Positions 8,696 to 37,909 of a stretch of 45,449 bases of DNA are shown here, piece by piece. Source of the stretch: an uncultured Rhodospirillaceae bacterium. GTDB lineage: Bacteria; Pseudomonadota; Alphaproteobacteria; Rhodospirillales; Magnetospirillaceae. The notes beneath the pieces were generated by a model. It was not told the DNA's origin and ran no database searches. It saw nothing but the letters and a program-made list of their open reading frames with translations. The stretch lies in the NCBI GenBank assembly GCA_903941095.1, contig CAJANN010000204.1, forward strand, positions 1 to 45,449, read 5' to 3'. A program made the position numbers and the translations under genes. Position 1 is the stretch's first letter; each line of letters starts with the position of its first letter.

Positions 8696-8739
8696 GTTAC
8701 CCCATGGAATGCTGCTGTGCGGACAGAGGAGACTCGCTC

Positions 8740-10937: not shown

Positions 10938-10971
10938 GCTCTGCGAAAAAACAGGCCTTGTGCCGGCACCA

Positions 10972-13583: not shown

Positions 13584-13589
13584 CCTGTT

Positions 13590-13596
13590 CTCTCCC
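13590..13596 (-). promoter_or_regulatory. Ribosome binding site supporting GTG start at 13583
   Basis: On the minus strand GGGAGAG ends 6 bases before the GTG. It favours the shorter protein over one starting at GTG 13637. Confidence 0.55.
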
Positions 13597-13640
13597 TGAT
13601 CTGGAAAAGCGTGGGCAGGGTATGGCGCCAAACTCACTAT

Positions 13641-13668
13641 TTCAAGCCGAATAAGAAGCCGCTATAAC
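13641..13668 (+). promoter_or_regulatory. Possible promoter for the galE operon
   Basis: A TATAAC at 13663-13668 is close to the -10 consensus and lies about 22 bases before the galE start. The best -35 candidate, TTCAAG at 13641-13646 with a 16-base spacer, is weak. It lies in the short divergent gap, so a promoter is expected here. Confidence 0.3.
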
Positions 13669-13690
13669 CTCGTCCTGCACCAGTGGAGAT

Positions 13691-14725
13691 ATGAGTGTGC
13701 CGCCCTCGATTGCCGTTCTCGTCACCGGCGGAGCCGGATATATCGGGAGTCACGCGGTACAGAGCTTGTTGGCCGCGGGCCACCGGCCTGTCATCTTGGA
13801 TGATCTATCGACTGGCAGCGTGCAAGCGATTCCCGCCGGGGTCTTGCTGATCAGGGGGCGGGTCCATGATTCTGCCTTGGTGGCATCGGTGGTGCGTGAG
13901 CACCGGATCGAGGCGGCCCTGCATTTCGCCGGCAGCATCCTGGTATCGGAATCGGTCGATAATCCGCTGAAATACTATGACAACAACGTCGCCGGAACCA
14001 TTGGCCTGGTCACCGGTTGCGTCGAGGCGGGCGTCCGCGCCATCTTGTTTTCATCGACTGCCGCGGTTTACGGCGATCCCGAGAGGCTGCCGGTGCGCGA
14101 GGACGATCCGGTGCGGCCGGGCAGCCCCTATGGCTGGTCGAAACTGATGGCCGAACGCATTTTGGCCGATGCCGCGGGCCGGCACGGCTTTGCTCACTGC
14201 GCTCTGCGCTATTTCAACGTCGCCGGTGCGGACCCGCAAGGGCGGACCGGGCATTTTGGCCCGGTCACGACCCACCTCATCCGGACGGCCTGTCGCGTCG
14301 CTCTTGGATACGAGAAGGTTTTTCAGGTCTTCGGCGACGATTACGACACCGAGGACGGGTCGTGCGTGCGCGATTTCATCGATGTGCGGGATTTGGCCGA
14401 CGCCCACGTCGCCGTGCTGCAGGTCTTGCTGGCCGGGTGTTCCCTGCCGGTGCTGAATTGCGGATACGGCCATGGCTATTCGGTGCGTCAGGTGGTGGCC
14501 GCGGTCCAGCGGGTGGCGGGCGGTCCGTTCCCGGTGACCATGGCGCCGCGCCGCGCCGGCGACATCAAGGCGATGATTGCCGATGTCGGCCTTATACGTC
14601 GTGCGGTGGGCTGGGTGCCTGCGCACGACGACCTTGACGCCATGATCGCCGCGACCTTGGCAAGCGAGCGTCGGCGCGCACAGTTGCTGGGGGAAGTACC
14701 GTCATGTGCGGCATCGCGGGGCTGA
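13691..14725 (+). CDS. galE: UDP-glucose/UDP-GlcNAc 4-epimerase
   Basis: The 344-residue extended SDR enzyme has the NAD-binding motif TGGAGYIG (12-19), the segment ALHFAGSILVSESV, and the catalytic Y147-x3-K151 pair (YGWSK) with an upstream SSTAAVYG serine/threonine motif. RYFNVAGADPQG is the hallmark of GalE. It interconverts UDP-glucose and UDP-galactose, or the N-acetyl forms, in the cytoplasm, supplying galacto-configured donors. The length matches GalE (about 330-350 residues). GGAG lies 3-7 bases before the ATG. The end overlaps the following asnB by 22 bases, so the genes are co-transcribed. Whether it prefers UDP-Glc or UDP-GlcNAc cannot be told from these motifs. Confidence 0.92.
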   Translation: MSVPPSIAVLVTGGAGYIGSHAVQSLLAAGHRPVILDDLSTGSVQAIPAGVLLIRGRVHDSALVASVVREHRIEAALHFAGSILVSESVDNPLKYYDNNVAGTIGLVTGCVEAGVRAILFSSTAAVYGDPERLPVREDDPVRPGSPYGWSKLMAERILADAAGRHGFAHCALRYFNVAGADPQGRTGHFGPVTTHLIRTACRVALGYEKVFQVFGDDYDTEDGSCVRDFIDVRDLADAHVAVLQVLLAGCSLPVLNCGYGHGYSVRQVVAAVQRVAGGPFPVTMAPRRAGDIKAMIADVGLIRRAVGWVPAHDDLDAMIAATLASERRRAQLLGEVPSCAASRG

Positions 14726-22223: not shown

Positions 22224-24434
22224 TTATTCCTTCATGGTTTTTTCGATCTGGGCCTTCGTCGCCTGGATTTCCGCCATCAGGGCTTCAATCTCGGGAGCGG
22301 CCGTTTCGGACCGGCGTAGCGTGCTGTCAAGGCGGCGCAACTGTCCCGAGATGTTTGCCAGCAAGTAGCACATGACCGCGTTGCGATAGAACTGCCCGAG
22401 GGCTTGCTTCAGACTCGCGTTCAGATTGCGCGGCGGATGAATCCAGCAGGCAGCACCGGCAATGGCGGCCAGGATCAGAAGGGTCTGGAGCCAATTCTGG
22501 CGCTTGTGATCGACCTGTCGATTCTTGATGGTGCTAATTCTATCGTAAAGGCGCAGTTCGTAGTCGGGAATCGTCTCCAGCCAGTCCTGGTTCTGCTGCT
22601 TTCGCTCTAGCATCATTTCGCTGGTCGTACGCTTACGCACCAGCGGCTCTGCCGCTGCGAGCGCAGCCGCATTCTCCGGGGGAGGCGCCTTGGAGGTGAA
22701 ATTCACACCATCGGCGAGCCCATACGAGTCGATCAGGCACCGGGACGGTGGGTTCAGATATTCCGGGAAATACGCGCCATAGATATTGAAGCCGATAATG
22801 GGTCCGACCGTTGCGAAGTCGATAGGAGCGTGTCTCTTGCCTGGTCCGGTATGAAGGTTGACGAAGTCTGTCAGGAACTTCTGCTCATTGGATTTGGTCC
22901 GCGGGCTGTCGAGTTTGAAGAAGATCACCCGCTTGCCGGCGTATGAGAAATCATCGACCAGATCGAATTTATCAGGATATAGCCGCGTCTCCTTCTTGGA
23001 GAACGGGTCGCCGCCACTCAGCGGCTTGTAAGGGATCTTGTACTTCTGAAAGAAGGTCTCGATGACATACTGGTGGAAGAAGTTGACGGAATCTCCACCG
23101 TTCAGAAACACGATCAACGTGCTCTTGTCGGACCCCAGGAAGTTGCTGGCGGTATCCTTCATGAAGCTCTCGCAATAGCCAAAGCTAAGTGCGCGCTTCA
23201 GGTTCATGTAGGGCATGACGCCGGAGAAGGTAAACGAATAGAAATGATGTTCGTTCTGGTTATAGGCGACGCGCTCGATCAGGTTGTTGGACTGCAGGCC
23301 GCGATAGTTCATCAAAATCGGATAGGGATTGAAGACCAGAACGACGGCTCCGGCGATGAACAGCGGGCGCCACCAGCGCAGCCGGGCGCGTAGCGTCGCG
23401 ATCATGAAATCGACCGCCTGGATCGACATGATCATCAGGAACGGCGCCGCATAGATGACGTAGCGTGGCTGGTTCATGCCCAGAAGATAGGCGTAGACAT
23501 AAACCAGGATCGGGACCACCGGCCAGAGTTCCAGCAAGGTCCAGGTGGACAGTCGCGCCCTTTGGACCGTGCGGGCGACGTAGAACGGCAACAAGACCAG
23601 CCACGAGATGGTGAAAACCTTCAGCCACGAATCGACGATCCAGAACGGCAGCACTTCATAGGCGCCGATATCTGCGAAGATCGAGCGGACCAATCCGATC
23701 GGGTCCAGCTTGAAGGGCAGGCCGACGATATAGCCGGCCAGGTAAAGGAAGATCCAGAACGCCCCGGTCTGGACCAGAACCATCAGGATTTTCCGGTCGT
23801 ACAAGAAGTCGCCCAGGCCGTTCCAGTACCGGCCCTCTTCAAGGCGAAGCTTGACGGCGTAACCCAGCAAGGCCATCGGCAGGGCGCCGAAAATAGCCAT
23901 GGCGTCACCGCGAAAGCCGATGGCCAGGCCGGCCGCCAAGCCGGCCAGCGGCATCAGCCATGCCGATTTCAAGGCCAAAGCGATGGACATGATGAAGAAC
24001 AAATAGGCGGTCGAGCTGTCGCCCAAGGTCTGGGCCGAAATCAGCCAGTAAGGCGCGACAAAGGCATAAAGCAGGAAGGCCAGCGGGCTGACGGCCTGAA
24101 AGCGGCGAACCACGAGGTAGGTTAGCCCGATGGCGATCGGTCCGCACAGGGCGGTGGACCACGCCATCAAGGTCCAGATGGAAATATTGAAATATTCGGA
24201 CGCATGAGTCAGCAGGAACCGCATCAAGGCCCGGCGACCATAATTAAGTTGTGCTATGCCGTGCGCCGATTCCCAGATGATGCGGGATTCGAACCCCTCG
24301 TAGGGAACGATCCAGAAGGACGGAAGAAGCACGTAGACAATAAGGAGGACGGTGAGAACGCGCTTGAGGACAGGGGCGTCGAAAAGGCGCAAGAACGTGT
24401 TTTCCGTTAGCTTCTTCAGCAAAGCGCTCGCCAT
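22224..24434 (-). CDS. Polytopic membrane protein with C-terminal coiled coil
   Basis: This 736-residue protein has about ten hydrophobic helices in the N-terminal 400 residues, then a soluble region of about 230 residues, another hydrophobic helix near 650-675 (WLQTLLILAAIAGAACW), and a charged helical tail (EIEALMAEIQATKAQIEKTMKE) that looks like a short coiled coil. An early loop holds acidic residues before the second helix (EGFESRIIWES), as in GT-C proteins, but no signature motif was found. ATG 24434 is preferred over TTG 24452 because of a GAGG just upstream. It is the final gene of the long minus-strand run, directly after the double nucleotidyltransferase gene, and converges on the GT2 at 22208. 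A transferase or polymerase role is inferred. Confidence 0.7.
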   Translation of the reverse strand: MASALLKKLTENTFLRLFDAPVLKRVLTVLLIVYVLLPSFWIVPYEGFESRIIWESAHGIAQLNYGRRALMRFLLTHASEYFNISIWTLMAWSTALCGPIAIGLTYLVVRRFQAVSPLAFLLYAFVAPYWLISAQTLGDSSTAYLFFIMSIALALKSAWLMPLAGLAAGLAIGFRGDAMAIFGALPMALLGYAVKLRLEEGRYWNGLGDFLYDRKILMVLVQTGAFWIFLYLAGYIVGLPFKLDPIGLVRSIFADIGAYEVLPFWIVDSWLKVFTISWLVLLPFYVARTVQRARLSTWTLLELWPVVPILVYVYAYLLGMNQPRYVIYAAPFLMIMSIQAVDFMIATLRARLRWWRPLFIAGAVVLVFNPYPILMNYRGLQSNNLIERVAYNQNEHHFYSFTFSGVMPYMNLKRALSFGYCESFMKDTASNFLGSDKSTLIVFLNGGDSVNFFHQYVIETFFQKYKIPYKPLSGGDPFSKKETRLYPDKFDLVDDFSYAGKRVIFFKLDSPRTKSNEQKFLTDFVNLHTGPGKRHAPIDFATVGPIIGFNIYGAYFPEYLNPPSRCLIDSYGLADGVNFTSKAPPPENAAALAAAEPLVRKRTTSEMMLERKQQNQDWLETIPDYELRLYDRISTIKNRQVDHKRQNWLQTLLILAAIAGAACWIHPPRNLNASLKQALGQFYRNAVMCYLLANISGQLRRLDSTLRRSETAAPEIEALMAEIQATKAQIEKTMKE

Positions 24435-24478
24435 TTTTGCCTCATCGCACAAGCAGGTTCAGAAATGACCTGCGATCG

Positions 24479-26038
24479 TTATTTGGCGCCGGTCGCGCCG
24501 AAATAGTCGGTCCAGTATTCCAGCACCTTCAGTTCGAACGGATCGCCGAACGACACCCATTGCTGGACGTCGAAGATGACGAACCTCAGCCCCTCTTGCA
24601 GCAAACCATTGATGCTTGTGCCGACGTAATGTTCACCGTTCACCGTGACGCCGGCTTCGATCATCTTGCGGACGCCACGCTTGAAGTCGCCGGCCCGACG
24701 ATACCAGAAGGTGCCGACCACCAATGGGTCGGCGCCGGGATTATCGCTGATGGTGCGCTTTTCCGCGACCTCGGTCACGGTGCGGCCGTCGGCGGCGGTG
24801 TCGCAATAGGCGAAAGCGCGGGGATCGCGGACCAGTCCACTTCCCATGCGATAGGTCCAGATCGCCCCGTCGATGGTTGGGTCATTCAAGATCGCCTGCC
24901 ACTGCTCCGCATCGTAGAAATGCTCGTAGTCGCAAGAGGCGATCATCAACGAGCAATCATCGGCCAGCACGTCGGCCGCCAGCATGCAGGTGGCCGCTTG
25001 GCCAGACGTCAGGCCCGGCACCGGCACAACGGTACAGTTGGAATATTCCCGCCGAAGCATCCGTTCCAGCGGATGCTTGTCGAGATCCTCGCTTCGGGGC
25101 AGGAAAATCCACCCATCGGATGTGGGCATGGACTGGGCGGCGCGCACCACCATCGGCACGCCATGGACTTGGATCATCGGCTTGGCGACGCGATAGCCAT
25201 ATTGCCGGAATCGGCTGCCGGCGCCGGCCATCGGCAGCAGATTGACCGATCCGGGCGGCGGGGCGTGGTGGATCTCGGCCGTGCGCTGGGCCAGCCGGCA
25301 ATGATAGTGATACCAGTACTGGTATTGTTCATAATCCTCGGGGGTGCCGAGGCAAATGAAATGCTCGACCTCGTGCACCGAGACGTCATAGCCGTCGGCG
25401 ATCAGGTCGTTGAACACCAAGCTGACATAGGCCTCGGGCAGATCCCGGTTCTTGGCGGCCATCAGGCGGCGCCCATACTCGCGAAACAGGGACCAAGTAC
25501 GGAAATAATAGATGCCGACCGAGGCATGTTCCTGGGTTCTGTCCTCGGTGAAGCTGGCCTTCTCGCGCAGTTCCAGCATACGGTTGCCGTCGGTACGCAT
25601 ATAGGCATAGTAGGTCGAGCCGAAAGACGCCGGATGGAATCCCTTGAACGAGGGAACGACCGCGTCGTGGGTCCGGGCGTGGCGCAGGAAGCGGGCATAG
25701 TCCCAGGTGACGGTGAAGTCGCAATAGGTGACGATCACCTCGTCGTCGTCGGCGATGCCGGCAACCTGCAAAGCGGTCCAGGTCGGACCCTCTTCGTGTT
25801 GGGGGATCGCCACCACGTTGACCCGGCGAGCCAGCCCTCTCAGGAATTGTTCCAGGTCGGGGTTTGCCGCCAACTGAGCGGTACTGACGACAAAATGGTA
25901 ATAATCCTCGGGGCCGAACATTTCCACGACGTGCTGGAGCATCGTCGCATCGCCGACCGGCAACAGGAATTTCGGCCCCTGGTACCCGGCTGCGGCGAAG
26001 CGGCGGGAATGACCGGCCATGGTGACGACGATGTTCAT
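24479..26038 (-). CDS. Tandem double sugar-nucleotidyltransferase-like protein
   Basis: This 519-residue protein consists of two RmlA/GalU-type NTP-transferase domains in one chain. Domain 1 (about 1-250) has MAGHSRRF (7-14), PKF (22-24) and the acidic segment TYCDF (D107). Domain 2 (about 264-519) has MAGAGSRF (270-277), KP (286-287) and ASCDY (D370). Both end with similar segments, ICLGTPEDYE and VSFGDPFELK. Such domains join a sugar-1-phosphate or sugar-alcohol phosphate to an NTP. Both keep the G-rich loop and a lysine, so both may be active, perhaps on one shared substrate or as a catalytic and a regulatory half. The ATG is clear. It lies 13 bases after the isomerase gene and forms a module with the three genes upstream. 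Confidence 0.88.
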   Translation of the reverse strand: MNIVVTMAGHSRRFAAAGYQGPKFLLPVGDATMLQHVVEMFGPEDYYHFVVSTAQLAANPDLEQFLRGLARRVNVVAIPQHEEGPTWTALQVAGIADDDEVIVTYCDFTVTWDYARFLRHARTHDAVVPSFKGFHPASFGSTYYAYMRTDGNRMLELREKASFTEDRTQEHASVGIYYFRTWSLFREYGRRLMAAKNRDLPEAYVSLVFNDLIADGYDVSVHEVEHFICLGTPEDYEQYQYWYHYHCRLAQRTAEIHHAPPPGSVNLLPMAGAGSRFRQYGYRVAKPMIQVHGVPMVVRAAQSMPTSDGWIFLPRSEDLDKHPLERMLRREYSNCTVVPVPGLTSGQAATCMLAADVLADDCSLMIASCDYEHFYDAEQWQAILNDPTIDGAIWTYRMGSGLVRDPRAFAYCDTAADGRTVTEVAEKRTISDNPGADPLVVGTFWYRRAGDFKRGVRKMIEAGVTVNGEHYVGTSINGLLQEGLRFVIFDVQQWVSFGDPFELKVLEYWTDYFGATGAK

Positions 26039-26051
26039 TGTCGGCGCGGCT

Positions 26052-26975
26052 TCAGTTGGGGATATCGGAGCGCCAGAAGGCGACGGATTCCTTCAAAACC
26101 TCGACCACCGTGCTGTCGGCCGGCTCTCTTTCACGGAAGCTCAGCTCCAGCAGCATCTCGATGGGGCCGTGGGCGTCGCCGGTCTTCAAGGCGTCCAGCA
26201 CCAGCCTGGGTTGAATGCGGCCGTTTTGGTTATTGGCTTTGGTGAACGGCCAATGGCCGCCCTTATCCTTCGATGATTGCTTCAGGTGGATCTGCGGGCT
26301 GTCGGCGGCGAAGCTCGACAACCAGGCATAAGGGTCGGTGTCCGAGGGGTTGGGCGAGCTGACGTCGCCGTGATCCACATCCAGGCAGACGCCGAAACGG
26401 ATCGGGGCGCCGGCATTGACGTCGTCTTGCAGGCGGCGACACTCGGCCAGGGTTTCTCCCTGTTCGCGCCCGATGGACATCGGTTCCCAGGTCAGGTAGC
26501 CCAGGCCGCGTTCCTTGGCGTAGCGCCCGATCTCGTGCCAATTGTCGATGTTCTGGCGGCGCCGCTCCTCGCGGCGGGCCGGGTCACCATTGTCGCGATG
26601 GGTGAAGATGCCGAAATGGCTGCCCATAGCCCGCGCGCCCAGATCGATTGAGATGTCCGCGAACCGCTTGAACCAATCGATCCAGTGGAGCTGAACCTCG
26701 CGATCGGGGTGGGCCAGATGGTTGACCCGGGTGAACGCGCCGGTAAACGTGCTGGTGATGGCGGTGCCGTGACGTTCACAGGCTGCCGTGATACGCTTGA
26801 CGTTGTCGGCGACGATCTTGGCCGGCAGGTCGGGATTAAGCATGTCGGCGGTGAACTGGATCGCCTTCAGGCCCAATTCCGAGCCTACGATTCGCACCCA
26901 CTCGTCGGGTTCGGAATAGCGGTTGACCGCGAATCCGGTATTGATGCCCAGGGTGTAGGTTGGTGCCTCGGTCAT
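26052..26975 (-). CDS. TIM-barrel sugar-phosphate isomerase/epimerase
   Basis: The 307-residue protein belongs to the xylose-isomerase-like/AP endonuclease 2 TIM-barrel superfamily. Segments at expected strand ends are AMGSHFGIFTH, LTWEPMSIG, VCLDVDHGD, QIHLKQSSKDKGGHW and MLLELSFREREP. They carry the His, Asp, Glu and Gln residues that bind a divalent metal in this fold. Members isomerise or epimerise ketoses and their phosphates, including erythrulose- and pentulose-type substrates. The true substrate is not readable. The ATG overlaps the upstream epimerase-like gene's stop (ATGA), so the two are coupled. Together with a dehydrogenase and a nucleotidyltransferase it points to a biosynthetic rather than catabolic role. 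Confidence 0.82.
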   Translation of the reverse strand: MTEAPTYTLGINTGFAVNRYSEPDEWVRIVGSELGLKAIQFTADMLNPDLPAKIVADNVKRITAACERHGTAITSTFTGAFTRVNHLAHPDREVQLHWIDWFKRFADISIDLGARAMGSHFGIFTHRDNGDPARREERRRQNIDNWHEIGRYAKERGLGYLTWEPMSIGREQGETLAECRRLQDDVNAGAPIRFGVCLDVDHGDVSSPNPSDTDPYAWLSSFAADSPQIHLKQSSKDKGGHWPFTKANNQNGRIQPRLVLDALKTGDAHGPIEMLLELSFREREPADSTVVEVLKESVAFWRSDIPN

Positions 26976-27673
26976 ATGCGCTCCAATCCCAATTCGATGC
27001 AGTCTCTCAGCCTGGCGATGGCGTCCTCGAGGGACATGTCCGACCGGAACAGCCCCGACGATCCGCCGACCAGGATATCGGCGCCGGCCGCGACCATGTT
27101 GGGCACGTTTTCATAATTCACATTGCCATCGACCGCAATGCGGATATCCAGCTTCATGTCGCCGATCAATTGGCGCAGTTTTTCGACCTTACGCAGCGTT
27201 TGTGGGACCAACTGTCCCCCCATGTAGCCCGGATTCACGGTCATCACCAGCACGACATCGACATCTTCGATCACGTATTCCAAGGCGTCGATCGGGGTGC
27301 CGGGGCAAATCGCCACGCCGACCTTTGCCCCCATCCGGCGCACCGTCACCAAGTCGCGGTGAAGATTGCGGCAGCATTCCTGGTGAATGGTGAAGGTGTC
27401 GCCCTCTTGGACCTGGAAGGCCGGGAACAGGCGATTGGGCTCATCGACCATCAGGTGGTAATCCGACGGCAAGCGCGAATTGGCTCGGAATCGGTTGATA
27501 ATGCTCGAGCCCATGGTGAAATCGGGGGCGAAGCGGCCGTCGATGACGTCGAAGTGCAGATAGTCGATGTTCTGCTCGTCGAGAATACGAAGCTGGCGCC
27601 CGGCATCAAGCCAGTCGATGCACATGATCGAAGCAGATATTTCGACTTTCTTCCTGGTCACCGGATCCCCCAT
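26972..27673 (-). CDS. Ribulose-phosphate 3-epimerase family protein
   Basis: The 233-residue protein matches the Rpe fold. It has S15 in ISASIM, H40 and D42 in LHFDVIDGRFAPDFTMG, H73 in HLMV, the loop MTVNPGYMGGQ, D182 in VDGNVN, and the phosphate-gripping LVGGSSGLF. All metal and acid-base positions known for Rpe appear to be kept, so it is probably an active ketose-5-phosphate 3-epimerase interconverting ribulose- and xylulose-5-phosphate, or a related ketose phosphate. Housekeeping Rpe is normally elsewhere in the genome; this copy sits inside a glycan module, overlapping the isomerase gene, and lies 5 bases after the dehydrogenase gene. It likely serves the synthesis of one specific precursor. 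Confidence 0.85.
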   Translation of the reverse strand: MGDPVTRKKVEISASIMCIDWLDAGRQLRILDEQNIDYLHFDVIDGRFAPDFTMGSSIINRFRANSRLPSDYHLMVDEPNRLFPAFQVQEGDTFTIHQECCRNLHRDLVTVRRMGAKVGVAICPGTPIDALEYVIEDVDVVLVMTVNPGYMGGQLVPQTLRKVEKLRQLIGDMKLDIRIAVDGNVNYENVPNMVAAGADILVGGSSGLFRSDMSLEDAIARLRDCIELGLERI

Positions 27674-27678
27674 CGTAA

Positions 27679-28734
27679 TCAGGCGTTCGGCCGCACGATC
27701 ACTTTTATTTCTGTCCCGCTACGGGCGATTTCCAGCCCTTCGGCCAGATCGTCGAGCTTAATGGTCCGGGTCACCAACCGCGCCGCGTCGATGGAGCCGC
27801 TCTCGATCAACTCCAGCGCTTCGCGGTGATGGGCCGGTGTCGAACCGTGCGAACCGGTCACATAGGCTTCGCGATAGTGGAGATGGTTCGACAGGAAGGT
27901 GATGGGGCGGGCCGATTTCGCCAGACCGCCGAACAGGTTGACCACGCCTCGCTTGGCCACGGCGGCGATTGCCTGTTCATGGGTTTCGACCGCGGGGCAG
28001 GCCGTGAACAAGACGTCGGCACCGCGGCCGGCGGTGGCGTCGATGATCGCCGTCACCGGATCGACCGCGCCGGGATCGATGGTGCGCAGGCCCAAACTTT
28101 CGGCCTGGGCGCGCCGGGCCTCGGACGGCTCGACGATCAAGACCTGGCTGGCCTGATAGCGCCCCTGCCCGAGCAGGCCGAGCATGAGCCCGATGGGGCC
28201 GGCGCCGAAAACGGCCACCGAGCAGCCGGGCCGTGCCAGGGCCACTTCGTATCCGTTGATGCAGCAGGCCAGCGGCTCGGCCAGGGCGGCGGCGTCGAAC
28301 GAGATATCGGTGCGGATCAGCGAGATCGGACCATGCTCGACCACGACCGGGTCCAGGCGCAAATACTGGGCATAGCCGCCATCGAACTGGTAGCCGATGG
28401 CGAAATTGGTGTCGCAGCAATTGCCCCTGCCGTTCAGGCAATGGTCACATTCGCCGCAGGGGACATCCGCACCGACGGCGATGCGGTCGCCGGGCTTGAT
28501 CCGGGTGACGCCCTGTCCCACCGCGACCACCTGGCCCGAGACTTCGTGGCCGATGATGCGGGGGGGCGAGATGCGCGGGTTGCCCTCGCGGAAGATACGA
28601 ATGTCCGACCCGCAGACCGCGCAGGCCTCGACCTTGATCAGTGCCGATCCGGGCAAAACCTGCGGGACGGGCACCAACTCGATTTCCAGCTTCTGCGGGC
28701 CGTGCCAGCGGGCCGCCTTCATCAACTCTGTCAT
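27679..28734 (-). CDS. Zinc-dependent medium-chain dehydrogenase (module)
   Basis: The 351-residue MDR enzyme has catalytic zinc ligands C41 (CAVCGSDI) and H63/E64 (GHEVSG), and a structural zinc site CGECDHC with a further C at 106/107. The Rossmann motif is VFGAGPIGLMLG. These enzymes oxidise or reduce polyols, alcohols and sugar phosphates with NAD(P). In the CDP-ribitol pathway, TarJ (a zinc MDR) reduces ribulose-5-phosphate before TarI (a nucleotidyltransferase) activates it. Here the dehydrogenase is followed by an Rpe-like epimerase, an isomerase and a double nucleotidyltransferase, which suggests an analogous polyol-phosphate or keto-sugar route. The reaction direction and substrate are inferred. 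It lies one base after the membrane gene upstream (TGACATG). Confidence 0.88.
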   Translation of the reverse strand: MTELMKAARWHGPQKLEIELVPVPQVLPGSALIKVEACAVCGSDIRIFREGNPRISPPRIIGHEVSGQVVAVGQGVTRIKPGDRIAVGADVPCGECDHCLNGRGNCCDTNFAIGYQFDGGYAQYLRLDPVVVEHGPISLIRTDISFDAAALAEPLACCINGYEVALARPGCSVAVFGAGPIGLMLGLLGQGRYQASQVLIVEPSEARRAQAESLGLRTIDPGAVDPVTAIIDATAGRGADVLFTACPAVETHEQAIAAVAKRGVVNLFGGLAKSARPITFLSNHLHYREAYVTGSHGSTPAHHREALELIESGSIDAARLVTRTIKLDDLAEGLEIARSGTEIKVIVRPNA

Positions 28735-28735
28735 G

Positions 28736-30622
28736 TCACCAATCCAAACGGTAAAGGATTCCCGACCCGGTGTCCTGGGAGAACGCCACCGGGAGACCGG
28801 GAGGGAGGGGGGCTTGCGTCAAGATGCGGCGAACGCGCAAACGTTTGGCCGTTTCGACGACATCGATATCGCGATACCGGGACCGGATCAGCAGATCCCA
28901 GGCACTTGCCCACAAGGGGGCCAAATCCATCTTATGCAGCGTCAGCCAATAACCAAGCCCGGGTTCTGATTGGTCGGGGCGGATTCGCAACCGTCCTTCC
29001 AATGGCGGCGATGGGCGGGCCATGAAGCTGGCGAAACGTTCTTCGCTCCAGCCCAGCAGGTGTGCGCGCAAGGCCATGCGCTCGATCGCCTCGGGCAACG
29101 GGATGGCATTCGAGAATCGCGATGGCAGCAGGTTGGTCTGCGGGCCGGCGATCGGCACCAGAATATCGACCGTCAAACTGTTCGACACCAGGACTTCGCC
29201 CGCTGCGGCATCTTTGGAAAGGGCTTCGTACAGCCGGGTCAGGCGAAGATTCTCGGCCGCGTCGGCCTGTACCACGCCGGTCCACACCGCGCGGGCACCG
29301 GACAGCAGGAAGAGGGTCAGAAGGACCAGCAGCAGCGGCAGATAAGCCAGCGACGCGTCGCGAACGATCCAGGCGAAACCAAACCGCGCCTTTTCTGCCC
29401 ACGCCGATCCCTCGATTCCGCTGGGATAAAACCGAGCCGGACGGCACATGTAATAAACCACGGGTGTGAAGTAATATATATGCAGGAACGGCATTCCGAT
29501 CCGCGAGAACATCAGGTCGGATGGGATGCCGACGTGAAAGACCTTCTGCAGGAGAAGCCAGAACAGTTCGATCGCCATCAACAGGAAGGCAGGCGAGAAT
29601 TTGAACAGTAATTCGTAGCCGTCGATGCGATCGACGCGATAGAGCAGGCCCAGCAAACCCAGCGGTACCAAAAAGTAGGCCAGATAGGAGTAACTGCTGT
29701 AATGATCGCCCGGGACTTCCGACGCCAGGCCGAGAAACGCCAGGCCGCCGGCATCATCGCCGGCTCCGACATAGCCGGCGATGGCTGGGGCGCTGACCAG
29801 GATGGCGATCAGCAATTGGCAGGCCAGCGCGACAGCCAGGGCTCCGTCGATCCGTTCCTTGTTGTGCCGCCACAGTCTGATAGACAGGACGACGAACCAG
29901 AACGGCAGGCCGATGGCGGCATTGATGACGTGAACCTGGCTTTGTAGGGCCCAAAGGACCGTCAGCACCGACACGCGGCGCATATCCAGGCGGGGACTTG
30001 GCCGAACGGTCAGATAGAAGGCCGCCAGGAAGAAGACCAGGGTCACCGAGGGCACCGGAAACGACAAGATGTCCGGTTCGGTCGGCCAGTTCAGGCTGGC
30101 TTGATCCAGCAATCCGGCCAGGAAGGCGCGAAGCGGAAGGGCGGCGAATCCCATCAGGCTGACCGCCGTCATCGCCACCGCCCACCTTTTGGTCACATAG
30201 CGCATGTGGATCGCCAAGATCAGGGCGAAGGCGGCGGAAGGGAACAGCAGGCGGCCGACGGTGTCGGCCCCGACATGACCTAACAGGCCGATCAGCGCTC
30301 CTTGGGTCCACAACACGAGATAGGGGTAGAAGGACATCTGCGCCAGCGAGGAATCGACCGCTGGGGTCGCCGGAAACAGATTGCCGGCGGCGACCTTGGC
30401 TGCCAGCGGCAGCCAGTTGGCGAATTCAGCGAAGTCCTGATAACTCGCGGGCAGCGCGGTCCGCCAAGGCCCCTCACCGAACAGGGCGGCAGGCAGGACC
30501 CAGGCCGAGAAGACCGCCGCGGCCCAGACCACGGAAAGCGCCAGCACGATCCAGCCCATGCGGTCGCGCGGTTCGTGACGCTTTCTGACAGGTGCTTCAT
30601 TGCGGTTGGTTGTGATCGACAC
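28736..30622 (-). CDS. Polytopic membrane protein, GT-C-like
   Basis: This 628-residue protein has about 10-12 hydrophobic helices in the first 430 residues, the first at about 22-47, and a soluble C-terminal region of about 195 residues. That plan is the same as the 833-residue protein at 1425-3926, and the two C-terminal regions begin with a similar pattern. An early loop (ALPASYQDFAEFANW) is acidic. A role as polyprenyl-dependent glycosyltransferase or glycan polymerase is likely but not proven; no signature was identified. The start is GTG 30622 with GGAG about 7 bases upstream. It lies 12 bases after the GDPD-like gene and one base before the dehydrogenase gene. Confidence 0.75.
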   Translation of the reverse strand: MSITTNRNEAPVRKRHEPRDRMGWIVLALSVVWAAAVFSAWVLPAALFGEGPWRTALPASYQDFAEFANWLPLAAKVAAGNLFPATPAVDSSLAQMSFYPYLVLWTQGALIGLLGHVGADTVGRLLFPSAAFALILAIHMRYVTKRWAVAMTAVSLMGFAALPLRAFLAGLLDQASLNWPTEPDILSFPVPSVTLVFFLAAFYLTVRPSPRLDMRRVSVLTVLWALQSQVHVINAAIGLPFWFVVLSIRLWRHNKERIDGALAVALACQLLIAILVSAPAIAGYVGAGDDAGGLAFLGLASEVPGDHYSSYSYLAYFLVPLGLLGLLYRVDRIDGYELLFKFSPAFLLMAIELFWLLLQKVFHVGIPSDLMFSRIGMPFLHIYYFTPVVYYMCRPARFYPSGIEGSAWAEKARFGFAWIVRDASLAYLPLLLVLLTLFLLSGARAVWTGVVQADAAENLRLTRLYEALSKDAAAGEVLVSNSLTVDILVPIAGPQTNLLPSRFSNAIPLPEAIERMALRAHLLGWSEERFASFMARPSPPLEGRLRIRPDQSEPGLGYWLTLHKMDLAPLWASAWDLLIRSRYRDIDVVETAKRLRVRRILTQAPLPPGLPVAFSQDTGSGILYRLDW

Positions 30623-30634
30623 TGTCCGTCTCCG

Positions 30635-31216
30635 CTACCAGAGATGGGGATGTTTGGTGCAGACCGCATCGACGGTCAGGTTGCGCCGATCCATTTCAGA
30701 CCGCATCGCGGCGATTTCGTCCACCGGGCGACCGTGCAGTTCGGGGCTGACCAGGCATAGTTTGAAGCCGGCCCGCCGCAAAGCGTTCCAGGAATCGTCA
30801 TCGATGGGCAGGCCGTGGAACACGTCCAACCATACCCACTCGGCCTGGCCGGCCAAGGTCAAGGCCCCCGCAGCCGGCTCGTATTCCGAGACCCGCAGGG
30901 CGACCCGGCGTTCGCCGGCCATCACCATCTTGATCAAGGCCGGGAATGACAGGTCCAGCATGAAGAAATCGTCGATGCCCCGGCGCAGGACAATCTCGCG
31001 CACCCTGGTCTCGATGCCTTCTTCCTTGATGTTCAAGATGACGAAGGCATGCCGGTACGAATCCAGCCATTCCTCGAAATCCACGGCGTCGGCGAAGGCG
31101 TCGTGGTGAACCACTAGGCGGTCGCCATAGGCGTGCAGATCCATCTCGACGCCCAGATCCGGCGACAGATCGCTCAGGGCGCGTGGATTGTTGATCCGGT
31201 GGGCGATCTTCAGCAC
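30635..31216 (-). CDS. GDPD-like phosphodiesterase
   Basis: This 193-residue protein has the N-terminal features of glycerophosphodiester phosphodiesterases: H6-R7, the metal pair E24-x-D26, and H37/H38 in LVVHHD. The following strand VILNIKEEG resembles the lysine-bearing strand of the family. It is shorter than usual GDPDs (about 240 or more), and the C-terminal half is only loosely alike, so it may be a minimal member acting on a small phosphodiester. No signal peptide is seen, so action in the cytoplasm is likely. The start is GTG 31216 with AAGAGA upstream, and it overlaps the GT2 stop by 7 bases. Proximity to a polyol-phosphate-like module makes a nucleotide- or glycerol-linked substrate plausible. 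Confidence 0.72.
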   Translation of the reverse strand: MLKIAHRINNPRALSDLSPDLGVEMDLHAYGDRLVVHHDAFADAVDFEEWLDSYRHAFVILNIKEEGIETRVREIVLRRGIDDFFMLDLSFPALIKMVMAGERRVALRVSEYEPAAGALTLAGQAEWVWLDVFHGLPIDDDSWNALRRAGFKLCLVSPELHGRPVDEIAAMRSEMDRRNLTVDAVCTKHPHLW

Positions 31217-31941
31217 GAGGTCTCTTTCAGCAAGCGGCGGCGCAAGGCGAAGGAATATAGAATGGTTCGACGGGAATAGCGCAGTTTTGCCGCCAGGGTT
31301 TCATTGTGCCCGGTGCCCGACAGGCGAGGGCCGAAATAGACCGGGAACCGCCTGATGGTCATGCCGTCGGCGACCGCTCGCCAATAGGCGAACAGATCCA
31401 GGGAAAAGTCGTGCGGCGGCTCGGCCCAGGCCCGGTAGACGCTGTGATGGAACAGTGCCGGCTGCGCGTGGATATCCCACAGCCGTTTGCCCAGGATCAG
31501 GAATTCGAACGCCGCCATGCCCCAGGCGAACAGGCGGTCGCGCAGCGGCCGGCCATAGCGCGAGCCCTTGGCGAAAACCCGCACAGGATCGGGCGACGAC
31601 AAGATCAACTCAAGCCCTTTCAAGGCGTCGGCGGGGTCGGTTTGCAGATCGGCATGGGTCCAGCCCAGATATTCGCCCGTAGCTGCCCGCAGCCCGGACA
31701 GAATGCCGAAGCCGTAACCCTGGTTCACCTCGACGCGGGTAGTGCGCAGGAACGGGTAGGGTTCGATCAGGCCGGGCAGAAGGCGGGCGGTGTCGTCGGT
31801 CGAGCCATTATCGACCAGCACCACCTCGTGGCCGCTGCCAGCGAAGACCTCGACGCAGCGCGCCACCAGACGCGGCAGGTTCCCCGCCTCGTTGTAGCAC
31901 GGAATGATCAGGGACAAGGTGGGGGGCGGCATGGCGGGCAT
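31210..31941 (-). CDS. GT2 family glycosyltransferase, soluble
   Basis: The 243-residue protein has the GT-A start LSLIIPCYNEAGNLPRL, VLVDNGSTDDT for nucleotide binding, and the metal-binding region WTHADLQTDPAD. It lacks the C-terminal membrane pair seen in the DPM1-like proteins of this locus, so it is a soluble or peripheral transferase. The start is uncertain among GTG 31944, ATG 31941 and ATG 31932; ATG 31941 is chosen because it shares one base with the upstream stop (TGATG). It overlaps the GDPD-like gene by 7 bases. The donor sugar is unknown, and an activated product of the 24479-28734 module is one candidate. Confidence 0.85.
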   Translation of the reverse strand: MPAMPPPTLSLIIPCYNEAGNLPRLVARCVEVFAGSGHEVVLVDNGSTDDTARLLPGLIEPYPFLRTTRVEVNQGYGFGILSGLRAATGEYLGWTHADLQTDPADALKGLELILSSPDPVRVFAKGSRYGRPLRDRLFAWGMAAFEFLILGKRLWDIHAQPALFHHSVYRAWAEPPHDFSLDLFAYWRAVADGMTIRRFPVYFGPRLSGTGHNETLAAKLRYSRRTILYSFALRRRLLKETSC

Positions 31942-33014
31942 CACGCGTTGGGACGAGCCACGGCCTTGAGGACCGGATAGGACATTTGCCTTCGCTTGTG
32001 GGCGGCCAGGTTGGCCAGCAAGTCGCCGATGCCGTCCAGCCCGACGAACTTATCGACCAATCGTGACGGTGCCAGGCCTTGGCGCATCATATCCAGCGCC
32101 ACCGTCCAATCGCTGAGTTCGCGGCCGCGCCAAGTGGAATTCCAGGTCCCGGAGATGGTGATTTCCCGACGCAGGACCTGAGACACCAAGCTTTGCGGCA
32201 AGGTCAGATCGCCCGAGATGTTGCCCATCCAGACCACTTGTCCGCCGTGGCGGCACAAATCCAGGGCATGGCGGAAAGTGTCGGGAACCCCGGCGGCTTC
32301 CAGCACCATGGGGAAGCTGGCTCGATGGGACTGGGCGAAGGCGTCCCAATCTCGGGGATCAGCAAGATGAATGGCCCGCGCGCCATCGGCGGCGGCAATC
32401 GCCAGTTTCCCGGCGTTGCGATCGATGATGGTCACGGCGATATCGGGGGCGCACAGCCGCAGGATCTTGACGGCCAGCAGCCCCAGGAAGCCGGCCCCCA
32501 GAATCAGCAGCGGTCCGGTTCCGGCTTGGCTGGCCCCGACCAGTCCCAGGCGGTCCAGTGCGTGCACCACCACCGAGACCGGTTCGGCCAGGGCGCCGTC
32601 ATCGGTGCCGACCCCATCGGGCAGCGGCAGCAGGTTCCAGGCCTTGACCGTCAGATATTGGGCGAATCCGCCGTGCCGGCGTGAGCCGTAATAATCATAG
32701 GACCGGCACTGGGCGTAGCGTTCGTTGGCGCAGGCATCGCAGGCGAAACACGGCAGCAACGGAAACACCGTCACGGCTGTCCCAGGCGTGAGGTCGTCGG
32801 GGGTCTCGGCGCCGCGCATGACGACCGTACCGGCCAATTCGTGACCCATGATCAGGGGGTAGAAATAGGCCCCCCGGTCGGACGACCGGGCGATGTCCGA
32901 CGAGCAGATCCCCGCCGCCTCGATCCTGACCAGACATTCGTCCGCGGCCGGCGGCTGACAGGGAACTTCGGTCAATTGGACGCTGGCGTTGTCGACCAGC
33001 ACCGCCGCCACCAT
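31941..33014 (-). CDS. Zinc-dependent medium-chain dehydrogenase (second copy)
   Basis: The 357-residue MDR protein has catalytic-zinc residues in GICSSDI and IMGHELAG, structural zinc cysteines in LPCFACDACANERYAQC, and the Rossmann motif ILGAGFLGLLAVKIL. It resembles polyol and threonine dehydrogenases in general layout. It differs clearly from the MDR at 27679, so it is a second recruited dehydrogenase, not a recent duplicate. I start it at ATG 33014; the frame stays open to 33446, but that extension is the arginine- and proline-rich antisense of the GMC gene. The upstream ribosome binding site is weak. The next upstream gene is a GMC oxidoreductase, so successive redox steps on one substrate are possible. 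Confidence 0.85.
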   Translation of the reverse strand: MVAAVLVDNASVQLTEVPCQPPAADECLVRIEAAGICSSDIARSSDRGAYFYPLIMGHELAGTVVMRGAETPDDLTPGTAVTVFPLLPCFACDACANERYAQCRSYDYYGSRRHGGFAQYLTVKAWNLLPLPDGVGTDDGALAEPVSVVVHALDRLGLVGASQAGTGPLLILGAGFLGLLAVKILRLCAPDIAVTIIDRNAGKLAIAAADGARAIHLADPRDWDAFAQSHRASFPMVLEAAGVPDTFRHALDLCRHGGQVVWMGNISGDLTLPQSLVSQVLRREITISGTWNSTWRGRELSDWTVALDMMRQGLAPSRLVDKFVGLDGIGDLLANLAAHKRRQMSYPVLKAVARPNA

Positions 33015-33138
33015 GGTCTGGGGGAAAAAGTCTAAGGAATCCTCGCGAGCCACGCGGTGCTTCTCATGAACGAATGATGCGGGTGCGAGACTATATCTAC
33101 CAAGTCTCTGCCATCTCAACGATATTCGCCAGATTCCG

Positions 33139-34671
33139 TTACGAGGAGGCTTCGCCGGCCAACTTGCAGGCGATGCGGTCGGCGTTGGCCATGACGGCGA
33201 AGGTATGGTGCTTGGCCGGAACCCGGGGCAACACGGCTCCGTCGATGACGTGGACGCCGGGCACGCCCGGCAGTTCGCCCAACGCGGAAACCACTTGGCC
33301 GACCGGCAGGACGGCGCCGTAATGGACCTCGGCCCCCGGGAGGTAGGCCGATGCCGAGCCGGGCAGGATCCACGCCCCCAGTCGGCGGAAATTCCGGCCA
33401 AGGCCGGCCAGTGTCCGGCGCATGGCTGGGTAAAAATCGGGGGCATGGCCGCCCTGGATGTCCAGAATGCCGTCGGCGCGCAACGTCACGCTATTGGCGC
33501 TGTATTCGCCGGGAAGGTAGACCAGGCCCAGCGCCAGTCCAGGCATCAGGGCGCGCAGGAAGTCTGCGGCGCCCCTTCGGGTCAGGGGCAGGTGGGCGGC
33601 GATGTCGGGCGCGGCCAAGGTCGCCGCGTCGTAAAGCAGGCCCAGTGCGTGGTTGCGCATGGGGCCACCTAGATCCAGGCGGAAACTCAATTGCGACAGC
33701 CCGAATCCCCGGTTCGGCAATCCGCGGCCCAAGCGCGCAGGCAAGGCCATCGCGAAGGCGAAGGCCGGGGCGTTTCGGATGGGCAGCCGCTTGTCGACCC
33801 AGCCCATGGCGGCCAGCGCCAGCCGGGCCGATGCGGGCGGCCCGGCCGCCAGTAGGACGCGATCTCCCCGGAAGGACAATATTTCGCCGTCTCGGACCGC
33901 CTCGGCCCAGCCTGGGCCGACCCGGGTCACGGTGACGGACGGCTCGACGGTCAGGTGGGGGAAGGCGCGCAATTGGTCCAACTCGTCGGCGGAATTGTAA
34001 ATGGCGCCGACGCCGCATCCCCATAGGCACAATTGGTCCAGGACGCAGGCATGGGCGCCTTCGCTTCGCACCGCCAGCCGCGATCGACCGAGCGAGAAGT
34101 CCCCGGCCCCGCCCTGCTGCCGATAGCGGTCCAGCAGGCCCTGGGCCATTGGGGTCAGCGGCAAGGCGGGCTGCAGGGGCAGTCCCCGCCCGTGAAAGCT
34201 GGCCATGTCGTCGCCGTCCGTGCCGCTCAGGCCCAGGCGCTGCGCGACACGGCGGTAGGATTCGTCCAAGGCGGCGGCAGGCAGCGCCCCGCCCAGGTCG
34301 TCGTCGTCAAAGGCGCTGCAGACGGCTCCCCACAGATTGGACAGGCCGCCGGCCGCCATGGTGCCGACCAGGGCGAATCCATGCGGCTCCAGGCGATTGC
34401 CGGGCGCATAGCCATCGACGAAGTCCGGAGACGCGCAGGTCCTCAGTTTCGGGCTGTAGGCAGCCATATCGCGCAAGCCGCCCAGGTCGGGGCCCAGCAA
34501 GTGGCTGCGGCCCAGGCGCCGCTGATCCGGCAGGGCCGGGCGGTCGGCGGGCGGTGGGGCCAGCCGGCCGGTTCCGGCATCCAGAAGCACGACCTCGTGA
34601 CCGGCCTCGAGCAGGGGCCGCGCCGCGGAAATTCCCGCCGGGCCGGTGCCGACGATGACGAAGCGTGTCAT
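33139..34671 (-). CDS. GMC-type FAD-dependent oxidoreductase
   Basis: The 510-residue protein has the FAD-binding Rossmann motif VIVGTGPAGISAARPLLEAG and a second segment around GLSNLWGAV that matches GMC oxidoreductases. At the C-terminus VIDGAVLPRVPAKHHTFAVMANADRIA gives the family's His-bearing active-site end. GMC enzymes oxidise alcohols, sugars or polyols using FAD. No signal peptide is seen, so it probably works in the cytoplasm. The ATG overlaps the upstream SDR gene stop (ATGA), so it is translationally coupled. GMC enzymes are not common in O-antigen loci, so it may be part of an unusual sugar oxidation. Confidence 0.82.
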   Translation of the reverse strand: MTRFVIVGTGPAGISAARPLLEAGHEVVLLDAGTGRLAPPPADRPALPDQRRLGRSHLLGPDLGGLRDMAAYSPKLRTCASPDFVDGYAPGNRLEPHGFALVGTMAAGGLSNLWGAVCSAFDDDDLGGALPAAALDESYRRVAQRLGLSGTDGDDMASFHGRGLPLQPALPLTPMAQGLLDRYRQQGGAGDFSLGRSRLAVRSEGAHACVLDQLCLWGCGVGAIYNSADELDQLRAFPHLTVEPSVTVTRVGPGWAEAVRDGEILSFRGDRVLLAAGPPASARLALAAMGWVDKRLPIRNAPAFAFAMALPARLGRGLPNRGFGLSQLSFRLDLGGPMRNHALGLLYDAATLAAPDIAAHLPLTRRGAADFLRALMPGLALGLVYLPGEYSANSVTLRADGILDIQGGHAPDFYPAMRRTLAGLGRNFRRLGAWILPGSASAYLPGAEVHYGAVLPVGQVVSALGELPGVPGVHVIDGAVLPRVPAKHHTFAVMANADRIACKLAGEASS

Positions 34672-35903
34672 CGTCCCCGCCCAAGGATCAGGCGGATCGG
34701 CAGCAATAATCCCTCGACGGCCAGCGTTCGCACCAGACCCAGGACCGCCCTGACCCGGCCCTCGCCATTCTGGGCATAGGCGGTAGCGCCCCCATGCGCC
34801 CCGATGTCGGCGATGGTGAAGGCCATGGACAAACGGCCCTTCAACCGAGTCGGGTCGGCGGGGCCGGAGATCGGTTCGAAGGCCCGCAGCGCCGTCGGGC
34901 AGGTGGTGGGCAACGACAAGGGCTTGGCGCCGCCGAAACGCTCGACACCACGGGCATAAGCGCGCAAATGGCGCAAACGCGGGCGGCTGCCGGCGACGGC
35001 GCGCAGCAAGATGACGCCCTCACGCAACAGCAAGCGGCGTGGCCCCGGTCCCTCGGCGGCCAGGGCCAGCTCAACCGGGCGCAGGGCAAGGCCCAAGGCC
35101 GTCAGGTCGCCCGAGCTGTCGATGGTGGTGATCCCGGCCAGGCCCATCACGCGCTCGGGATCGACCTTGATCGGCAGCGGGAGTGCGTTGACCACCCGAA
35201 CCGCCAGCAAGACCAGCAGCAACGGCAGCGGTACGACGATCAGGCGCTTGTGGTGGATGGTGCGCGCCAGCAGGCGCAGCCACGCACCGAAAGTCACGGA
35301 AACCGGGTCGGCCAGCCCCCAGGTCTTTCGATCCATCTCGGACCGCTCGGCTAGGCGCAGCAATCCCTCGCACAGATCGTCGAGGTGGATGGGCTGGATT
35401 CCCTTGTCGGTGCCGATCATCGGCAAAATCGCCAGTTTGCCGGCCAGCGCGCACATGGTTCCCCATTGGCCGAGCCGCGGCCCGCCATAAACGAGCCCGA
35501 TGCGGGCGGCGACCTCGTCCGTCCCCGTCAACTCGGATGTCAGGGTCCATTTAAGGCGGCCGTAACGGTTCAGCGCCCCCTCGCGGGCCGAGATGCTGGA
35601 CGCCAGCACGAAGCGCCGAATCCCGGCTTGGCGAGCGGCCGCCAGCAGGGCGCGCGTGCCGATCAGGTTCTCGTCCTCGGCCTCGGGGCGCGAGCTGTCC
35701 CATTGATGGGCCAGATGCAGCACGGCGTCGATGCCGGCCAGGCAATCCCGGGGGACCGGGGCGGTCAAATCCCATGGGAACCATTGTACCGGCGCGGCCG
35801 GGCGTCGCCGGGACAGCACGACCACCTCGTGCCCGCGCGCCATCGCTGCCGCCAGCAAGGGGGTGCCGATATAGCCGCTGCCGCCGGTGATCAGGATGCG
35901 CAT
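34668..35903 (-). CDS. NAD-dependent epimerase/dehydratase-like SDR with C-terminal extension
   Basis: The 411-residue protein opens MRILITGGSGYIGTPLLAAA (extended SDR NAD-binding motif) and continues with DAVLHLAHQ and FVLASSISARE. The active-site region reads NRYGRLKW, with Y and K in the YxxxK order. After about residue 300 it has an extra 110 residues, rich in Leu and Arg, including SLPTTCPTALRAFEPISGP, that are not part of a normal SDR and whose role is unknown. ATG 35903 has GGAGGG just upstream and overlaps the asnB stop by 13 bases; a longer frame to 35987 re-reads that gene. It likely acts on a nucleotide sugar; the coupled GMC oxidoreductase suggests a shared pathway. Confidence 0.8.
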   Translation of the reverse strand: MRILITGGSGYIGTPLLAAAMARGHEVVVLSRRRPAAPVQWFPWDLTAPVPRDCLAGIDAVLHLAHQWDSSRPEAEDENLIGTRALLAAARQAGIRRFVLASSISAREGALNRYGRLKWTLTSELTGTDEVAARIGLVYGGPRLGQWGTMCALAGKLAILPMIGTDKGIQPIHLDDLCEGLLRLAERSEMDRKTWGLADPVSVTFGAWLRLLARTIHHKRLIVVPLPLLLVLLAVRVVNALPLPIKVDPERVMGLAGITTIDSSGDLTALGLALRPVELALAAEGPGPRRLLLREGVILLRAVAGSRPRLRHLRAYARGVERFGGAKPLSLPTTCPTALRAFEPISGPADPTRLKGRLSMAFTIADIGAHGGATAYAQNGEGRVRAVLGLVRTLAVEGLLLPIRLILGRGR

Positions 35904-37789: not shown

Positions 37790-37909
37790 AAGAATCCAGA
37801 GGGTTAACGGTGTGCCTCTCACGCTTGGGCATGTTGCACCATGGACCGGGCTGTAAGGTCCAGCATTTCCTCTTCTCGCTCGGTACGGGGCTTGTCCGGG
37901 GGCAAGACG

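Follow-up and report, generated by a model that had tools for sequence, protein, structure and literature searches.

Gene organization and conservation

The stretch of DNA analysed here (the window) comprises 45,449 nucleotides of contig CAJANN010000204.1 from an uncultured Rhodospirillaceae bacterium. Its minus strand carries, at 24479-33014, a run of eight genes transcribed in the order ADH2-GT2-GDPD-like-GTC628-ADH1-Rpe-EryC-NT2 (Table 1), which probably is a biosynthetic cassette. An initial annotation, made from the sequence without database searches, had singled out four of these genes (24479-28734) as a possible new pathway to a nucleotide-activated sugar or polyol. The four adjacent open reading frames (ORFs) are real, all lie on the minus strand and belong to the families described then (ORF list; Pfam matches on cassette proteins were counted at E<=0.001). 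The spacing given for them, -4 to +13 bases, agrees with the measured gaps of 13, -4 and 5 bases among NT2, EryC, Rpe and ADH1. They do form a conserved unit, but the run is longer: it continues upstream into another four genes (28736-33014) at intervals of 1, 12, -7 and -4 bases, after which come 124 bases. The start of ADH2 was set at 33014 by alignment with its counterpart in the second genome described below.

All eight genes are found, in the same order and on the same strand, in an uncultured Rhodospirillaceae metagenome-assembled genome of a second genus (L002; this 65,080-base contig is identical with G432:C57 and L034 and was counted once). Identity between the two sets of proteins is 76% for NT2, 77% for EryC, 83% for Rpe, 73% for ADH1, 57% for GTC628, 76% for GDPD-like, 70% for GT2 and 70% for ADH2, Rpe being the best conserved. 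Ratios of nonsynonymous to synonymous change (pN/pS) range from 0.17 to 0.44 across the eight genes, values that are rough because synonymous sites are near saturation, and the run appears to be under purifying selection. Window and L002 have further genes of the locus in common (two asparagine synthases, DegT, Gfo/Idh-hexapeptide, WecB and glycosyltransferases; 51-76% identity), which surround the cassette in another order. The cassette lies within a homologous polysaccharide locus in both genera, and its conserved gene order is more than chance.

Profile searches with the transferase matched four of the 55 genomes of the family, two strongly and two distantly. A third genome, G611, carries on a 4,630-base contig (contig 556, L037) an EryC gene divergent from two transferase ORFs, one corresponding to the first half of NT2 (42%) and the other to the second half (43%); its EryC is 46% identical to that of the window. 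Rpe, the housekeeping copy included, had no match in the G611 assembly at E<=1e-10. As this assembly is 80% complete, genes of the set may have escaped detection there, or the set may be split.

Table 1. Genes of the cassette and its downstream neighbour in the window
Feature	Coordinates	Strand	Basis or remark
NT2, two-domain nucleotidyltransferase, 519 aa	24479-26038	-	domains about 1-240, 265-519
EryC-type TIM barrel, probable ketose (tetrulose)-1-phosphate 3-epimerase	26052-26975	-	4k3z match, tree
Rpe/AlsE-family ketose-phosphate 3-epimerase, second copy of the genome	26972-27673	-	PF00834 3.8e-55
ADH1, zinc MDR dehydrogenase	27679-28734	-	PF08240/PF00107
GTC628, putative GT-C-type membrane glycosyltransferase, 628 aa	28736-30622	-	position, homologues
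GDPD-like protein, 193 aa, conserved-core member	30635-31216	-	annotation of homologues
GT2, probably polyprenyl-phosphate glycosyltransferase	31210-31944	-	PF00535, profile matches
ADH2, the other zinc MDR dehydrogenase (GatD-like), at the start of the run	31941-33014	-	PF08240/PF00107 in longer ORF 31941-33446
GTC742, 742 aa, 26 bases downstream of NT2	22224-24452	-	outside conserved cassette

GTC742 is possibly co-transcribed with the cassette; a search of 21.5 kb of L002 found no counterpart (E<=1e-15). The polysaccharide locus of the window also holds three asparagine-synthase (glutamine-hydrolysing) genes (14704-16650, 35891-37822 and 37910-39754), two of them with close counterparts in L002 (65 and 72%).

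The predicted isomerase is an EryC-type epimerase

The gene product described initially as a TIM-barrel sugar isomerase is a TIM barrel of the xylose-isomerase-like family (PF01261), more specifically an EryC-type epimerase. Its best relative in the PDB is 4k3z_A (E=2.5e-89), followed at E<=0.01 only by a putative xylose isomerase (4.9e-26). Although 4k3z was deposited under the name D-erythrulose 4-phosphate dehydrogenase, we take it to be Brucella EryC, in agreement with the operon contexts of plasmid EryCs. By sequence comparison, membership of the EryC family is clear. EryC is described as the D-erythrulose-1-phosphate 3-epimerase of erythritol catabolism (PMC10733421).

Plasmid relatives are 47-49% identical among the matches listed (best 20 of 142 records), and identity to four aligned plasmid or rhizobial EryCs of polyol operons is about 48%. 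The blocks WEPMS, DHGD, HxKQS, KGGHxPFT and ELSFxERE are invariant in the window EryC and five others. Four plasmid contexts (L009, L010, L011, L012) all look catabolic. Three of them (L009, L011, L012) are runs of FGGY kinase, glycerol-3-phosphate-dehydrogenase-like protein, TIM barrel and sugar-binding regulator, with TpiB and RpiB in two of the three and not within the stretch of the third; L010 is a different polyol-type locus carrying TpiB and RpiB genes.

EryC is rare. At E<=1e-40 it occurs in seven of 317 genomes of the order and, in a class-wide sample, in one of 385, the window genome itself. In four of the seven genomes the gene lies between eryB and eryD, and in the other three (G000, which is the window genome, G432 and G611) beside a nucleotidyltransferase. 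Phylogenetic analysis sets the glycan-linked EryCs apart from the catabolic ones (support 100/100) and joins the three EryC-linked transferases in one clade (96/89); the exact position of the L037 EryC is unsure due to its long branch. No second EryC was detected in the window genome at E<=1e-10.

The rhizobial erythritol operon eryABCD-tpiB-rpiB, presumably carried by Brucella as well, shares with the window this one gene and its motif blocks. It differs in its neighbours. The window genome, about 95% complete, has no match to the FGGY kinase family (PF00370), which was detected in 11 of 14 control genomes; EryA is therefore missing. Queries for EryA, EryB, EryD, TpiB and RpiB from Rhizobium bangladeshense found no match in the window (tblastn, E<=1e-8), EryC alone being found, and an RpiB-family gene is present elsewhere in the genome (C214). 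The window EryC sits instead with nucleotidyl- and glycosyltransferases and belongs to a separate clade.

A second 3-epimerase and two dehydrogenases

Rpe had been credited with all catalytic residues. The Ser, HxD, HLM and VDG positions of its aligned relatives, among which we take the catalytic residues to be, are indeed kept, but at a position occupied by Met in eight of the 11 aligned rows it has Ile (D[VI]MDG changed to DVIDG); L002 also has Ile and L048 has Cys. Another rpe of the same genome (G000:C209), taken as the housekeeping copy, is 35% identical. In the tree, the cassette Rpe falls among AlsE and Rpe rows from sugar operons (95/96) and not with this other rpe, and it adjoins a long-branched AlsE row at 86/88, under the starred support level. 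It passes the broader PRK05581.1-4 subfamily model (177.3 bits, cut-off 165) and stays under the cut-off of the curated AlsE (D-allulose-6-phosphate 3-epimerase) model (173 versus 271 bits).

The best NCBIfam models of ADH1 are IolM/TDH, far under cut-off, and that of ADH2 is galactitol-1-phosphate 5-dehydrogenase (206 versus 550 bits). What we take to be the Cys/His and four-Cys zinc motifs of ADH1 look intact by eye. The second Rossmann strand ends with an acidic residue in both enzymes (IVEPS, IIDRN), which usually denotes preference for NAD(H) and thus speaks mildly against a reduction in biosynthesis. Apart from the window and L002, ADH1 and ADH2 have no matches in the 19 loci compared. 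Some plasmid relatives of ADH1 adjoin kinase or glycerol-3-phosphate-dehydrogenase genes.

Activation and transfer of the unit

NT2 is a fused double nucleotidyltransferase, as originally described: full-length homologues align over both halves at 32-76% identity. The first domain matches PF12804 (7.9e-17) and PF00483 (2.7e-10), and no IspD-family match was found at E<=0.001. Both halves retain the invariant G..R, PK/KP and Asp motif positions, although in the first half Ser replaces the loop's second Gly. The AlphaFold model, built from a two-row alignment, has a predicted local distance difference test (pLDDT) value of 35. A role in anti-phage defence was considered and rejected, NT2, EryC, Rpe and ADH1 having no PADLOC match at E<=0.001.

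Chondroitin synthase heads the profile matches of GT2 (2.4e-17, residues 4-109), which include dolichol-phosphate-mannose synthase (4.7e-17, residues 2-221 of 240) and ArnC (5e-15). GTC628 has no Pfam match at E<=10. It follows GT2 and the GDPD-like gene in the same way as kinase fusions do in two related loci, L003 and L004, and one of these fusions matches GT87 weakly (19.5 bits, cut-off 25). GtrABC-type O-antigen modification offers a comparison: the window GT2 is similar to dolichol-phosphate-mannose synthase and ArnC, and a single GtrA query, which matched six of 21 related loci, found nothing in the window at E<=1e-6.

Homologues of the GDPD-like protein, 48-51% identical to it, are annotated by NCBI as PI-PLC/GDPD. 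No GDPD model of Pfam matches the protein itself at E<=10, and its family profile retrieved nothing from the PDB at E<=1. From a weak model (pLDDT 60), the best Foldseek match is the GDPD 2oog at E=0.027, with nothing at E<=0.001, and a VIA search with the same model gave a mixed result with Z <5 (best Z 4.6 to another fold, best GDPD Z 4.0). In the aligned ILNVKEEG-type stretch, Asn occupies the position of the GDPD metal-binding Glu, presumably the usual metal ligand.

A proposed shared core with alternative supply genes

We compared 21 NT2-family loci, the window included, by tblastn (E<=1e-6) with 15 queries taken from the window, L003 and L004; the stretches measure 4.6-45 kb. Five of 33 plasmid transferase records were taken up in this comparison, and five half-length transferase hits (G148, G010, G299, G047, G130; about 1.5 kb flanks) stand outside it. 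The initial annotation had asked whether the four genes split up in relatives. All eight are kept together in the second genus; among the 21 loci, on the other hand, NT2 stays with GDPD-like (19/21) and GT2 (15/21) while the supply genes change. The four genes therefore combine a supply module with part of a core and do not make up a self-contained pathway.

An alternative, which we call type B, consists of a phosphoribulokinase (PRK)-type kinase fusion, a HAD phosphatase similar to ribulose-1,5-bisphosphate (RuBP) phosphatase and a class II aldolase. It is complete in eight of the 21 loci: L003 (Azospirillum brasilense, p5), L004 (Escherichia coli IncR plasmid), L005 (Hirschia pHbal01), L039, L040, L041, L045 and L046. 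Unlike the window, these loci lack matches to EryC, Rpe, ADH1 and ADH2, and six of the eight match GtrA. The three loci whose hosts are named above share homologues of NT2 (32-37% identical), GT2 (51-57%) and GDPD-like (48-51%) with the window. EryC is present in three of the 21 loci, none of which has the kinase, HAD or aldolase.

The remaining loci are less complete. L044 has kinase and aldolase, L042 aldolase only, L043 transferase, GDPD-like and GT2 only, and L047 no partner gene in its stretch, while the distant loci L035, L036, L038, L006 and L007 show transferase and GDPD-like only, plus a weak GT2 in L036. The only Rpe match among other core loci is in L048, where a 1,293 aa fusion (4775-8656) lies directly upstream of NT2, GT2 and GDPD-like. 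In this fusion, a P-loop kinase-like stretch (by eye; weak AAA-type matches) is joined to a region matching class II FBP-aldolase and to an Rpe domain. A separate observation concerns L043, which lacks the set of PRK, HAD and aldolase: here an FGGY_C_2-type kinase gene (5160-6518) separates the transferase gene from those for GT2 and GDPD-like.

Kinases and HADs were scored in five of the eight type B loci (L003, L004, L005, L041, L046). In all five, the best NCBIfam model of the HAD is ribulose-1,5-bisphosphate 5-phosphatase (162.6-190.4 bits, cut-off 330) and that of the kinase phosphoribulokinase (172.5-205.5 bits, cut-off 236), and type B therefore points to a ketose-1-phosphate. The HAD of the distant-type locus L006 scores best with beta-phosphoglucomutase-like models and not with the RuBP 5-phosphatase. 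Aldolases of L003 and L004 score best, far under cut-off, with RhaD-type aldolase/dehydrogenase models, and that of L003 has a weak ribulose-1-phosphate aldolase match (23.8 bits, cut-off 300). The type B route may thus run from ribulose-5-phosphate through RuBP to ribulose-1-phosphate, with a ketose-1-phosphate aldolase. The literature search found no paper on the haloarchaeal ribulose-1-phosphate route suggested by the name of the HAD model, so that this assignment rests on NCBIfam model names. FucA and RhaD can form D-erythrulose-1-phosphate from dihydroxyacetone phosphate and formaldehyde (PMC10733421). Both supply types would point to ketose-1-phosphates, a pentulose in type B and a tetrulose in the EryC type.

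Two side observations concern plasmid-borne genes. The Sinorhizobium meliloti Ak57 polyol locus L010, which also holds an EryC, carries at 3814-6149 an aldolase gene, its product 45% identical to that of the Azospirillum type B locus, together with an adjoining gene for a xylulokinase-like FGGY kinase. On an E. coli IncR plasmid (L008, NZ_CP145712.1, 4986-17325), a complete type B cassette (6022-14984) lies between two IS26 copies, one of them frameshifted. The same transferase gene (99.9%) occurs in a second E. coli record, giving two of 5,426 E. coli genomes, both with the gene on plasmids.

Discussion

The setting in a polysaccharide locus and the lack of an FGGY kinase make biosynthesis a better reading than catabolism. 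The product class proposed initially, a small, activated and unusual sugar or sugar alcohol of the surface glycan, stands, and among the options then listed the tetrose has been strengthened by EryC. We tentatively propose, at a little less than an even chance, that this dedicated biosynthetic cassette forms a small residue from a ketose, with C4 (tetrulose or tetritol) the likeliest size, and activates it for a surface polysaccharide. EryC, whose family function has been shown elsewhere, would set C3 of tetrulose-1-phosphate. The Rpe/AlsE-type enzyme may set C3 of a ketose bearing its phosphate at the distal end (tetrulose-4-phosphate or pentulose-5-phosphate), and ADH1 and ADH2 may interconvert ketose phosphate and alditol phosphate. 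NT2 would attach a nucleoside monophosphate to the ketose-derived unit. Judging from the families, GT2 would then load a lipid carrier and GTC628 transfer the unit to the glycan, the GDPD-like protein taking some part.

In our reading, NT2, GT2 and GDPD-like are a shared core served by an exchangeable ketose-phosphate supply module, here for tetrulose phosphate; other bacteria may feed the same core from a ketose-1-phosphate source made up of PRK, HAD and aldolase. We found no description of this core in the literature searched. A generalization, possible yet distinctly doubtful, is that a surface-glycan core takes ketose-1-phosphate-derived units from swappable modules, either ribulose-1-phosphate (PRK and RuBP 5-phosphatase) or tetrulose-1-phosphate (a recruited EryC).

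Several points weigh against the C4 proposal. The best curated model of Rpe is the ribulose-phosphate 3-epimerase TIGR01163, whose cut-off it does not reach (193.6 versus 212.6 bits). EryC is 39-48% identical to catabolic members and its substrate may have changed; the L037 EryC is devoid of the KGGH block (NVFSH instead) and of the Ser of KQS. The eight-gene run contains no aldolase or obvious tetrulose phosphate source, two 3-epimerases exceed the needs of a simple C4 route, and an alditol product would ill suit GT2 if GT2 is a glycosyltransferase. Kinase and phosphatase of type B imply a C5 ketose, ribulose-1-phosphate, and a product shared by both types would make C4 wrong; the type B HAD, kinase and aldolase scores all remain under curated cut-offs. 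Finally, the full eight-gene set is limited to two genomes, with one further genome pairing EryC and transferase. The transferase is found in none of the 12 same-genus genomes besides the window's own (E<=1e-60), which makes the cassette accessory.

A five-carbon unit made by the same architecture seems rather unlikely to us. Rpe would then act on ribulose-5-phosphate/xylulose-5-phosphate, EryC on C3 of a pentulose-1-phosphate and NT2 on a pentulose or pentitol phosphate. This agrees with the best model of Rpe and with the ribulose-1-phosphate expected from the PRK- and RuBP-5-phosphatase-like supply genes, three of whose loci are close to the window in GT2 and GDPD-like. However, the known substrate of EryC is a tetrulose and the motif blocks of the family are retained, the modest identity of NT2 between the two supply types allows different substrates, and the window Rpe stands apart from housekeeping Rpe rows in the tree. 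Improbable, in our opinion, is the absence of any single linear route, with EryC and NT2 making the unit and Rpe and the dehydrogenase(s) serving another step of glycan synthesis or acting at the level of nucleotide sugars. L037 does pair EryC and a split NT2 where no Rpe was found, which says little given the incompleteness of that assembly and the equally unseen housekeeping rpe, and Rpe and dehydrogenase matches are nearly or entirely absent from other core loci. Against this, Rpe overlaps eryC by 4 bases, ADH1 follows after 5 bases, both stay in the run of the second genus, Rpe is its most conserved protein, and in L048 an FBP-aldolase/Rpe fusion adjoins NT2, GT2 and GDPD.

The initial annotation also drew a parallel with cytidine diphosphate (CDP)-ribitol synthesis, in which a dehydrogenase and a nucleotidyltransferase (TarIJ, Bcs1) act on ketose-derived phosphates, as is proposed here. 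In that route, pentulose-5-phosphate is reduced and then CMP is added (PMC10918830). Adjacency of a ketose epimerase, a dehydrogenase and a nucleotidyltransferase would fit such a CDP-ribitol or CDP-pentitol pathway with divergent enzymes. Nevertheless, NT2 is a two-domain PF12804/PF00483 protein without an IspD-family match at E<=0.001, the NCBIfam hits of NT2, ADH1 and ADH2 include no TarI/TarJ-type model, the dehydrogenases are probably of NAD(H) type and without matches in the 19 other loci, and the route has no place for EryC, for two 3-epimerases or for delivery by GT2. We regard this pathway as very improbable and reject it on the transferase family. Equally hard to credit is a catabolic erythritol or polyol operon placed in the glycan locus by chance. 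The family membership of EryC and the neighbours of some ADH1 relatives are compatible with it, but the genome has no FGGY kinase match, the window has no match to EryA, EryB, EryD, TpiB or RpiB, and the run continues into GT2 and NT2 and is conserved inside the polysaccharide locus. Catabolism, which the initial annotation had set against its own proposal, was rejected on the missing kinase and the neighbouring genes.

For the proposed activation of a ketose-derived unit, Campylobacter jejuni HS:5 offers a parallel, compared here by description only. CDP-6-D-glucitol is made there by two enzymes, a short-chain dehydrogenase/reductase reducing CDP-6-fructose after activation of fructose-6-phosphate (PMC10918830). 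Ketose phosphate, nucleotidyltransferase and oxidoreductase thus combine to give a capsule alditol, and since fructose-6-phosphate is activated first, activation of alditols can proceed via ketose phosphates. Our literature search, which left out most subscription journals, found nothing on nucleotide-activated tetritols in glycans; CDP-erythritol and CDP-threitol were absent from the papers listed on the subject.

If the C4 proposal and its generalization are true, the building of a surface glycan has recruited a tetrulose-phosphate epimerase from catabolism. Isoprenoid synthesis aside, and as far as the literature search shows, nucleotide-activated tetrulose or tetritol would thereby gain its first genetically defined route. 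The model would also provide a testable substrate class, ketose-1-phosphates, for a nucleotidyltransferase family that occurs in several proteobacterial families and on the plasmids of two E. coli strains, and a gene signature for polysaccharides with tetrose, tetritol or pentulose residues.

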